Of a DNA stretch of 64,000 nt, positions 443-64,000 are shown piece after piece (the first letter of the stretch is position 1; every line of letters begins with the position of its first letter). The position numbers were made by a program, and so were the translations under genes. The notes beneath the pieces are model-generated. The model had not been told where the DNA came from. It saw only the letters and a program-made list of their open reading frames with translations, and did not search any database. This DNA is from Rhodobacter sp. (GTDB lineage: Bacteria > Pseudomonadota > Alphaproteobacteria > Rhodobacterales > Rhodobacteraceae). The DNA is taken from contig JADCEN010000003.1 in the NCBI GenBank assembly GCA_020250175.1, positions 155,731 to 219,730 on the forward strand, written 5' to 3'.

Positions 443-652
443 TCTCGCGGCGGATTTGGATTGGCGTTGAGGGCTGACTCCCTGAAGGGAAGACGCGATG
501 ATGCCGGTTCTGTCGCTTCTGCGGGATGTTCCGGCCCGCCCGCACCGGGAACGCGGCGCATCATGACCTTCCGGCAAAGTGCTGAAAAAGTGCCCGCCGC
601 ATGGACCGCTGGCCAGAGAGCAGGAAACTGTTCCCCAGGCCCCCTGCGGTCT

Positions 653-785
653 GGCCGGGGCCATCACCCCCGGCCGGGCGGGCAAACGCGCTGCATTTCG
701 GGGTCCGCCCGGAATGGCACCCCCTTTTCCCCGGATTGGGAAGTTTTCCCGCCCGGCAGGCGGCGGGGATGCTTGTTCAGCACCT
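653..785. repeat. Mosaic hairpin intergenic repeat, copy R1
   Basis: GGCCGGGG-ccatcac-CCCCGGCC hairpin (653-675), then gggcgggcaaacgcgctgcatttcggggtccgcccgga and ccccggattgggaagttttcccgcccggcaggcgg, the latter two also found near 28103-28207. Confidence 0.65.
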
Positions 786-1624
786 TTCGGAAGGCGCTGG
801 AGATTGCTGTTTGTGCCTTTGGCTGTCGGCGATGCCGCTTCGCTTTGCCGCGAACCTGTCTGTCGCCGGACTTGGTTCCACAGGCTTCGCTCTGGCGTGT
901 CTTGCGGGCTGTTTCGCTGTCTGCGCCCTGGCCGCAGGGGGTGTCCTGGCGCGCAGCGCCATCCTGGGGATTGCGGCGGTCGTGGCGCGGGGCACGCTGA
1001 TCGGCAAGTCCTGCTTTCGGGGTGCCCCGGTTCCGGTGGCCCTGCCGGGGCCGCAGGCGGCAGGGCCGGTGCCGGTGGTGCCGGCGCACGACCTGACGGT
1101 GTCTTGCCGGGTTTTCACGCGGGTCATGACCGGGATGCGCAAGGGGCAGATGCCACATCGCATCCTTCGCAGGCCGGAACCGGGTGTGCCGGGTGCCGCG
1201 ATGATCTTATCTGCGGCCCCCGGTCTGTTCCACCACGGGTCTTGCCGTTCCGGCGGTGGCGAATGATTTCCCGCCATGTCCCGGGGGCCGCCGCCACGCC
1301 CCGCACGCTGTGTGCCGCCGGTGCTTGGCTGGCCACGCGGGCGGCAAGGCGTTGCATCCCGGCTTTGCTTCTGCAGGCGGGTCATGCATGGCCGTTGCCG
1401 CCCCTGGCCGGTTCTGCAGGCCAGGCCGCAGGCGGCAGGCGTAAGGATTGCCGCCGTTGCACTGGCCTGCCGCAGGCGGCATCTGTATCCCGGCCCGGCA
1501 ATACGGTATTGCACCGCAGGGCGTTTGCACGTCGGACCTGATCGTCGCGGCCGTCAGCATCCTGACCGTCACCCTGGTGATCGCCTGGATGCCGGACTGC
1601 GGTGCCGGGCGTTGAAAAGGAAGA

Positions 1625-6936: not shown

Positions 6937-7725
6937 CTATCGCATTCGCCCGAGGATGGTTCTTGCGACGTCGCCGGACCATCCTGCGTCTTTGCGTCTG
7001 GCGGGAGACGGGGAGTTTGGGGCGGGCTTTTCGCAGGAGGTTGAGGGTAAGCTTTCGCAGAAGGCTGCGGTTTTCCGCCCCGTTTTCCTTTGCGGTTGCG
7101 GGCGCGGTCCTCGTCGAAAGCCACATCCAGCACCCGGTAGGGGCTGTTCCCGATCAATCAACGGGTGCCTGCGGCTTTCGCGACGGCTTCGGATGTCAGC
7201 CGGGCCGGGGAGACATGGAAGCGTGTGGCCGTGGCCGTGCTCTCGCCGATCTGGCGACCGGACGGGACGCAGGCGATCACGGACAGGCCGGGCAGGCCCG
7301 GCCTGTCCGTGCAGCGGCGGCCCGTCACCACATGCAGGGGCGCGCGTCCCGCCGCGCGGTCGAACGACCGGCGCAGCGTCTTGCCACTGGTCGCCAGCAC
7401 CCCCGGCCCATCGGCACCGGACCGTCCAGAAAGGTATCAAACACCCGCGCGAATGCCTGCGCCTCCCGCAGCCGGACCAGCCGGCTGAACGTGTCATGGC
7501 TCGGCAACCCATTCTCAAGGCCAGAAATTCCTGCAGCAGACGCACCCGACCCTCGGCGAACCGGGCAAAACCCACACAACTCTCCGCCCCGCAGACCAAG
7601 GCCGCCTGTGCGGTCACCAGCATGTCCAAATGGGAATGGCGTTGCGCATTCTCTGTACCGGGATCAGGCACTTGACGAGAAAGCGTGATCAGTGACGGCA
7701 TCGGCCCCACCTTCAGGAACCGCAA
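6937..7725 (-). pseudogene. Decayed ISAs1-family transposase
   Basis: Fragments in different minus frames: AQRHSHLDMLV..CGAESC.GFARFAE.R..LLQEFL, ENGLPSHDTFSRL, GKTLRRSFDRAAGRAPLHVVT, NSPYRVLDVAFDEDRARNRK, and an ILGRMR end. Confidence 0.8.
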
Positions 7726-7793
7726 CCGGACTCCAATTCAGCCCAAAGCGCCACCTTCACATCTGAAATGCGATTCCCCTCCCGTTGCGCTGT

Positions 7794-7890
7794 GGCAAAG
7801 GCGATGGCCTTTGCCATGGCAGCGGGGTCCGACCTTTCGCCCCCGTCTCCGGGCGGGACCCGGCCGGGGCTTTGGCCCCCCGGCGGGCGT
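7794..7890. repeat. Mosaic hairpin intergenic repeat, copy R2 (inverted module order)
   Basis: GGCAAAGGC-gatg-GCCTTTGCC (7794-7815), gacctttcgcccc..ccgggcggg, CCGGGGC-tttg-GCCCC; matches the reverse complement of copy R3. Confidence 0.7.
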
Positions 7891-7987
7891 GCCGCACGCA
7901 CCGCGCGGGTGGAAAGGTTTCCGGCTTTCCGTATCCGGCGGCCCTTGCGGCCGGTACTTCGCGCTACCCTTCCAGGCGGGGAAACGG

Positions 7988-27840: not shown

Positions 27841-27884
27841 CCGGCGCGAAACGGGTGCGGGCGGAACGGGCCGGCCGGGGGGAA

Positions 27885-28210
27885 GCGCGGTGCGTATCCG
27901 GGGCCCGCCCGGAAGCGGGGCGAAAGGTCTTGCAGCGCTTCGCCATCCCCTGCTGCCATGGCAAAGGCCATCGCCTTTGCCGCTGAGATACGCTGTCACC
28001 AAGCCCGCCGGGGGCCAAAGCCCCCGGCCAGCGTCCGAACCGCCCCCGGCAGGCGCTGGCCTTTCGTGGTGGGGGGGGGCCGGTGTGGGCGTTCCATGGG
28101 GTGGGGAAACGCGCTGAGTTTCCTTCTCTGCCCGGAACGGCAACTCCTTTCCCCGGATCGGATAGATTTTCCCGCCCGGCAGGCGGTCGGAATGCTGTTT
28201 CAGAACCCTG
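27885..28210. repeat. Mosaic hairpin intergenic repeat, copy R3 (longest copy)
   Basis: GGCAAAGGC-catc-GCCTTTGCC (27960-27981), GCCGGGGGC-caaa-GCCCCCGGC (28007-28028), ggggaaacgcgctgagtttcc and ccccggatcggatagattttcccgcccggcaggcggtcgg shared with R1. Confidence 0.75.
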
Positions 28211-28263
28211 ACAGGCACTTGCAAGGGCGCGCCTGCGGCCTGGGTGGTCTGCAAGTTCCCACC

Positions 28264-31680: not shown

Positions 31681-32464
31681 CGATTTCCTTGTTCGCGCCG
31701 GGCTGGCCGGTATCGGCCTGTCGCTTGCGGCCGGGCCTTTGGGGGCCTTTGTGGTCTGGCGGCGCATGGCCTATTTCGGCGATGCCACGGCGCACGCAGC
31801 CATTCTGGGCGTGGCGCTGGCGCTGGCGACTGACCTGCCCGTGGGGCTTGGCACGCTGACGGTGGCATTGCTGATGGCGGTCACCGTGGCAACGCTGGCG
31901 GCACGCGGCTGGGCGATGGATACAACGCTGGGCGTGCTGGCGCATTCGGCGCTGGCCTTTGGCCTCGTCGCGATCAGCTTCGTCCACGGGGTGCGCACCG
32001 ATCTGTCGGCCTGGCTGTTCGGCGACATCCTGGCGGTGACGCGGGGCGACCTGGCCCAGATCTGGGGCGGGGCCGGTCTGGTGGCGCTGCTGCTGATCTG
32101 GCGCTGGTCGGCACTGCTCACCGCGACCCTGAACGAGGATCTCGCGCATGCGTCCGGGCTTAACCCGGGGCGCGAACGTCTGGTGCTGGTGCTGGCGCTG
32201 GCGGTTGTCGTCGCCGTGGCCATCAAGGTTGTGGGGGCGCTGCTGATCGCCGCCATGCTGATCATCCCCGCCGCCGCTGCGCGCGGCCTGACGCGCAGCC
32301 CGGAAAGCATGGCGGCAGTTGCGGTGCTGATCGGGGCCACGGCCAGCATCGGCGGGCTGGGGCTGTCGATGTGGCAGGACACGCCTGCGGGGCCGTCCAT
32401 CGTCGCCTGCGCGGCGGTGGTCTTTGCCCTGTCAGCGGTTCTGGGGCCGCTGCGCTGGCGCTGA
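31673..32464 (+). CDS. znuB: Zinc ABC transporter permease
   Basis: GPLGAFVVWRRMAYFGDATAHAAILGVALAL; overlaps the znuC end. Confidence 0.93.
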   Translation: MLDDFLVRAGLAGIGLSLAAGPLGAFVVWRRMAYFGDATAHAAILGVALALATDLPVGLGTLTVALLMAVTVATLAARGWAMDTTLGVLAHSALAFGLVAISFVHGVRTDLSAWLFGDILAVTRGDLAQIWGGAGLVALLLIWRWSALLTATLNEDLAHASGLNPGRERLVLVLALAVVVAVAIKVVGALLIAAMLIIPAAAARGLTRSPESMAAVAVLIGATASIGGLGLSMWQDTPAGPSIVACAAVVFALSAVLGPLRWR

Positions 32465-32608
32465 GGCGGGCGGGGCAGGCATGGCATCGGCCTGCCGTCG
32501 CCCCGCGCCCGCCATGTCGTTTTCGTCTGGCAAAGGTCGGGCGGCCTTGCCCGTTCCGCAGCGCTTGGGGCATGACTGTGCAAAATCCGAAACCACGGAG
32601 TCGGTGCG

Positions 32609-63638: not shown

Positions 63639-63699
63639 CCTGCCCGCCACAAGCCACTGCTGCGGGTCCGGCAAGACTGAACAGGGTGGTGATGAGGTG

Positions 63700-63862
63700 C
63701 CGGTCGCAAGGGCACCGTCCCGCGCGGGCGGGGAAACGCGGTGCGTTTCCTGATCCCGCCCGGAGGGGAGGCGGAACTGCGTCGCCGCCATGGCAGGGGC
63801 CATTGCCCCTGCCACAGCGCCACGTTGACCCTTGCCAGCCGGGGGCCAAAGCCCCCGGCCAG
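63700..63862. repeat. Mosaic hairpin intergenic repeat, copy R4
   Basis: gggcggggaaacgcggtgcgtttcctgatcccgcccgg, GGCAGGGGC-catt-GCCCCTGCC (63792-63813), GCCGGGGGC-caaa-GCCCCCGGC (63838-63859). Confidence 0.75.
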
Positions 63863-63874
63863 TATCCGTGTTCG

Positions 63875-64000
63875 TCAAGCGGTTTGTACGGGTCTTGTTT
63901 CGTGCCATTCCCTGTTTTCGCGCAGGAGTGTGTTGGCGAGGATGAGGAGTTTGCGCATCGCGGCGACGAGGGCGAGTTTGGCGGGTTTTCCGGCGGCGCG
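63875..64000 (-). mobile_element. IS110/IS1111-family transposase, C-terminal end, truncated by window end
   Basis: Minus translation RAAGKPAKLALVAAMRKLLILANTLLRENREWHETRPVQTA*, typical IS110-family C-terminus. Confidence 0.8.

Follow-up and report, generated by a model that had tools for sequence, protein, structure and literature searches.

What kind of element carries the two small hairpins, H1 and H2, that recur around positions 27,885–28,210 of the window (the whole stretch of 64,000 nucleotides of Rhodobacter sp. DNA that was analysed), and is it their structure or their sequence that is maintained? A preliminary description had reported the two hairpins, a paired replacement of A-T by G-C in the H1 stem and H1–H2 gaps of 25 and 24 bp. 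When the coordinates were re-derived, all of these were found as described: H1 and H2 of copy R3 both have perfect 9-bp stems (Table 1), and the gap is 25 bp in R3 and 24 bp in R4. The paired change is present in R4. The other supposed variant, R2, is a minus-strand copy whose 'gatg' loop is simply the reverse complement of the 'catc' loop of R3; H1 of R2 is identical to that of R3, so that R4 is the one copy in the window in which A-T has been replaced by G-C. In the window, eight perfect hairpins combine a 4-nt loop with a stem no shorter than 9 bp, whereas 20 first-order Markov resamples gave 1.1 on average and never more than 3. A perfect 15-bp hairpin at 7278–7311, CACGGACAGGCCGGG-CAGG-CCCGGCCTGTCCGTG, is outside the repeat family described here.

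Table 1. Parts of the four repeat copies in the window (TIR, terminal inverted repeat)
Copy	Part	Position	Strand	Basis
R1	Complete short TIR-to-TIR element, 213 bp	575–787	+	TIR pair scan, repeat search
R1	TIRs	575–594 and 768–787	+	TIR pair scan
R1	H1-like hairpin	652–675	+	
R1	A-like hairpin and 3' tail	from 676	+	
R2	Partial copy, C and A hairpins lost; 5' end towards 7954	7793–7954	-	Repeat and hairpin searches
R2	H1	7794–7815 or 7793–7816	-	
R2	H2-like hairpin	7862–7884	-	
R3	Upstream A hairpin, decayed	27877–27912	+	BLAST and nhmmer matches of genome copies
R3	H1, GGCAAAGGC-CATC-GCCTTTGCC	27960–27981	+	
R3	H2, GCCGGGGGC-CAAA-GCCCCCGGC	28007–28028	+	
R3	C stem, short form without inner hairpin	28028–28059	+	Alignment A1
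R3	Second A hairpin, imperfect	28100–28134	+	Alignment A1
R3	3' tail and 3' TIR	28135–28215	+	Comparison with complete elements
R3	3' TIR core, CTGTTTCAGAACCCTG	about 28195–28210	+	
R4	Copy, ending after about 63868, near contig end	63682–63868	+	
R4	5' TIR, diverged	63682–63701	+	
R4	A hairpin	63726–63761	+	
R4	H1, GGCAGGGGC-CATT-GCCCCTGCC	63792–63813	+	
R4	H2	63838–63859	+	

The H1/H2 pair is part of a larger unit of four hairpins, and R3 is merely one decayed copy of it. The hairpins A and C, the TIRs, the copies elsewhere in the genome and their arrays lay outside the view of the preliminary description. The full unit spans about 210–240 bp and contains H1, H2, C and A (A = GGGGAAACGCnnnGCGTTTCC) in the order H1, H2, C, linker, A, spacer and next H1 on the strand of R3; the spacer between A and the next H1 is of several types. 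The C stem (CCAGCGCCCG...CGGGCGCTGG) flanks an inner hairpin, and the A hairpin reads GGGGAAACGC-nnn-GCGTTTCC within a GGGCGGG/CCCGCCC stem. With R3 as the query, BLAST found 108 matches in its own genome, where the A hairpin occurs 82 times (reversed-pattern controls, 0). Within the window, the repeat search aligned R1 676–784 to R3 28099–28207 at 74%. Compared with shuffled sequences, two intact units gave fold z-scores of -7.35 as DNA and -7.24 as RNA, and the value of -1.67 for R3 marks it as decayed. Both ends are retained in R1, only the 5' end in R4 and only the 3' end in R3, for which comparison with complete elements found no 5' TIR. Other sequence, possibly an insertion, interrupts R4 after H2 and occupies 63869–64000, up to the contig end.

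Many of the intact copies stand in head-to-tail arrays with a period of approximately 240 bp, and all units of one array are on one strand. That the arrays arose by local tandem duplication alone was rejected as the simple reading because, for 33 of the 36 units that stand in arrays of more than one unit, the closest relative belongs to a different array. This mixing, like the number of units per array (2–4 full units were seen), may be partly an assembly artefact because the assemblies are fragmented, with 86 contigs for the genome itself and MAGs for its relatives.

The preliminary description had taken the paired change and the fixed spacing as signs that structure is maintained, and had proposed a search for covariation in a larger set of copies. 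Covariation is present for both H1 and H2, and the compensatory changes proved genuine and far richer across relatives than within the window. Among 30 diverse units, H1 pair 5/20 is AU in 17, CG in 5, GC in 4 and UA in 1; pair 6/19 is AU in 13, GC in 8, GU in 2 and UA in 1; and pair 7/18 is AU in 15, GC in 8 and CG in 2. In these three pairs, both partners are changed in 29 cells, compared with 9.8 in shuffles (none of 500 as high) that ignore relatedness and 2–11 in slid controls. H1 covaries likewise in an 82-unit alignment. RNAalifold detected only H1 and A in alignment A1, since MAFFT had opened a gap within the H2 stem; H2 was therefore tested separately using arms extracted by a script and a shuffled control. 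The distinct H2 arms, taken as the best hairpin beside C, a choice that favours pairing, were 88.3% paired; shuffled arms averaged 73.8% and reached 79.7% at most. In C and A it is the sequence that is conserved, and covariation is scarce: the C stems of the 30 diverse units showed no double changes, and mismatches were found in 8 of 30 at columns 82/133 and in 5 of 30 at columns 76/139. Since the letters of H1 and H2 change in matched pairs, it seems that the folded shape of these two hairpins is kept rather than their spelling, and selection on structure is the simplest reading of their covariation.

Imperfect palindromes can be converted to perfect ones by replication. The matched changes might thus reflect template switching in quasi-palindromes, by which one arm is copied onto the other, with no selection on structure, and H1 and H2, being short, mostly perfect and very stable, would be suitable substrates. 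The long C stem of the same unit, however, retains its mismatches uncorrected at both column pairs given above, and one lineage carries G.A/A.G mismatches in H1 (GGCCGAGGC/GCCGAGGTC); we consider this origin very unlikely. The H1 with these tandem mismatches was read at four loci of a Gemmobacter MAG (L077, L133, L155 and L163).

A fold kept by pairing raises the possibility of a multi-copy structured RNA (a small RNA or a 3'-end element), in which H1 and H2 would be kept for the RNA fold and C and A as sequence read by proteins or RNA partners. Besides the covariation, the stability of the four hairpins as RNA and the position of H1 in other genera, where it often starts 7–35 bp past a stop codon, are in line with such a role. 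The Rfam searches are not: at both gathering and permissive cut-offs no family was above threshold for the intact units, and the window gave one tRNA only. RT-15 matched intact units with 17.8 bits (cut-off, 82), but the bias of 25.4 exceeded the score, and the match was ascribed to composition. In gaps between codirectional genes, 9 elements point in the same direction as the genes and 11 in the opposite direction, a mixture that indicates no link with the direction of transcription. The arrays, the TIRs and the patchy distribution described below also speak against a structured RNA, which appears quite unlikely to us. Nor is there support for a simple terminator reading, which the preliminary description had allowed for: TTTT, as would be expected after the hairpin of an intrinsic terminator, occurs anywhere in only 14 of 167 forward and 12 of 167 reverse units.

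According to gene calls made by a simple GC-frame rule, the copies in this genome are non-coding and lie between predicted genes. Gaps between convergent genes hold 34 of 63 classified elements, compared with 37 of 212 element-free gaps (Fisher p = 4e-8), and divergent gaps are under-used (9 of 63 versus 62 of 212). An excess between convergent genes has been reported for REPs (PMC1525189), and REP/BIME/REPIN systems with their RAYT (PMC2817692, PMC3116915, PMC3733652) resemble the present family in being clustered, high-copy extragenic palindromes with this enrichment. The elements might accordingly be REP- or BIME-like parts of the chromosome kept by the host, for example as sites for gyrase or nucleoid proteins or as 3'-end mRNA stabilisers between convergent genes; their high copy number and multi-hairpin arrays would fit. 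However, the convergent excess can also be expected from the purging of harmful insertions near promoters, and dozens of copies in some congeners contrast with single matches in others. Whereas REPs measure 20–40 bp and BIME clusters alternate in orientation (PMC2817692), the present unit has approximately 210 bp and four hairpins and is repeated in a single orientation, and no GTAG/CGTC tag is conserved across genera in alignment A1. The REP-like reading of the preliminary description, which had suggested looking for a RAYT, was not borne out by the search: PF01797 has no match in the genome, which is 99.96% complete, and the controls were positive in five genomes. We regard elements kept by the host in this way as distinctly improbable.

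The ends of the elements point to mobility. Complete elements are bounded by inverted repeats close to CAGGGTGCTGAAAAAG, of about 16 bp, and the TIR core motif occurs at 16 forward and 16 reverse sites in the genome (reversed-pattern controls, 0). The pair scan yielded 22 TIR-to-TIR elements of 137–1277 bp: judged by their length, the shorter ones contain no full unit, those of approximately 340–350 bp contain one unit, and the longer ones contain arrays. The TIR elements are thus MITE-like and carry no unit, one unit or an array, and many of the copies in this genome lie within them. No clear target-site duplication emerged: one flank pair (L200) has a likely repeat, TTAG, and the other flank pairs are ambiguous. 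None of the DDE_Tnp_1 transposases that were checked has inverted repeats matching the TIRs, and at the loci examined in this genome no autonomous element with matching TIRs was found near the DDE_Tnp_1 matches or as a longer TIR pair. One DDE_Tnp_1 gene (L211; G000 C47:75181–75624) is situated at a further synteny break, 1.3 kb from an array.

Several sites were compared with those of congeners. Both G002 and G003 have collinear flanks but no element at the sites corresponding to C47:77k and C13:11.5k; gain and loss are not polarised by this comparison. The flanks of R1, R2, R3, C22:4.4k and C47:68k are non-adjacent in G003. Breaks relative to G003 occur at 5 of 7 elements and at 3 of 21 element-free junctions (p = 0.009), a small hand count from match tables at loci chosen for convenience and confounded with gap size. 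In G001, a multi-unit array adjoins the orthologue of the left flank of R3. The window also contains a synteny break relative to G002 and G003 in a gap that has no repeat element (32436–32513).

The distribution in relatives is patchy. Other species of the genus have at least 50 unit matches in three cases and one each in G002, G003 and G006. Among the matches listed, the A hairpin came up in records named as Rhodobacter, Gemmobacter, Pseudorhodobacter, Fuscibacter and Paracoccus, and also in MAGs of Rhodobacteraceae or of unplaced Alphaproteobacteria and Proteobacteria. A search that allowed one mismatch at most found none in 198 other genera of the family, each sampled by one genome. Two-unit arrays with a period of approximately 245 bp were found in a Gemmobacter MAG and in another Rhodobacteraceae MAG. 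The copies read in Paracoccus, Pseudorhodobacter and Fuscibacter are solo, and no such TIRs were recognised in them, so that TIR transposition does not explain the spread there and is at best part of the story. No match for the intact unit was found in the plasmid and phage collections, and a Paracoccus unit gave only partial matches, covering at most 20% of the query, in the plasmid collection. Searches of the literature for repeats of this group gave nothing useful.

Taken together, the data are explicable without any host function. The repeat is probably a mobile element of Rhodobacteraceae, intergenic, hairpin-based and non-autonomous, that acts at the DNA level, is mixed between loci and often lies at synteny breaks. 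In this genus, the core unit of approximately 210 bp (H1, H2, C and A) would be carried inside the MITE-like TIR element and be spread in trans by a transposase using the TIRs. The hairpins may have a role at the DNA level, as cruciforms or by being recognised as single strands while the unit is copied or amplified, and later ectopic recombination between arrays would mix the units and leave arrays at synteny breakpoints. Alternatively, the hairpin unit might spread and amplify in tandem by a mechanism tied neither to RAYT nor to classical TIR transposition, such as single-strand processing by an enzyme that recognises C and A as fixed stems but requires of H1 and H2 no more than their fold; in that case, the unit would have been captured secondarily by the TIR element of this genus. 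We presume this second route to be unlikely.

The favoured non-autonomous mobile repeat shares with MITEs its short, non-coding, TIR-bounded, intergenic and multi-copy form and its presence or absence at collinear sites. Unlike MITEs, it contains a structured unit that recurs head to tail at a period of approximately 240 bp, and its core is also seen without recognised TIRs in other genera. The attC cassette arrays of integrons are likewise tandem and imperfectly palindromic, with single-strand folding possible; judged from sequence, however, the present arrays consist of hairpin units only, with no coding cassettes between the repeats. The family offers a clear case of a bacterial repeat in which pairing is what is kept in some stems and sequence in others, and arrays of comparable period occur in more than one genus. 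Should the synteny signal hold at more loci, the arrays would give rise to changes of gene order in a group of environmental Rhodobacteraceae, in which they probably also break many short-read assemblies.

Several further arrangements were observed. In Pseudorhodobacter sp. PARRP1 (L075, 5496–6337), a solo unit is flanked by two copies of a gene's 3' end, the duplicated stretch being roughly 160 bp on both sides. One unit was found at 135–340 of a 5.9-kb contig classed as viral (L180; IMGVR_UViG_3300042517_001213), which may be a host fragment. Beside or around the arrays at L051 (C8:117.9k) and L056 (C38:65k), there is a second repeat family, GCATTTGAACGTGACTGGCCGCCCCCGGC...AAACCAAATGCGACAG, which also looks MITE-like.
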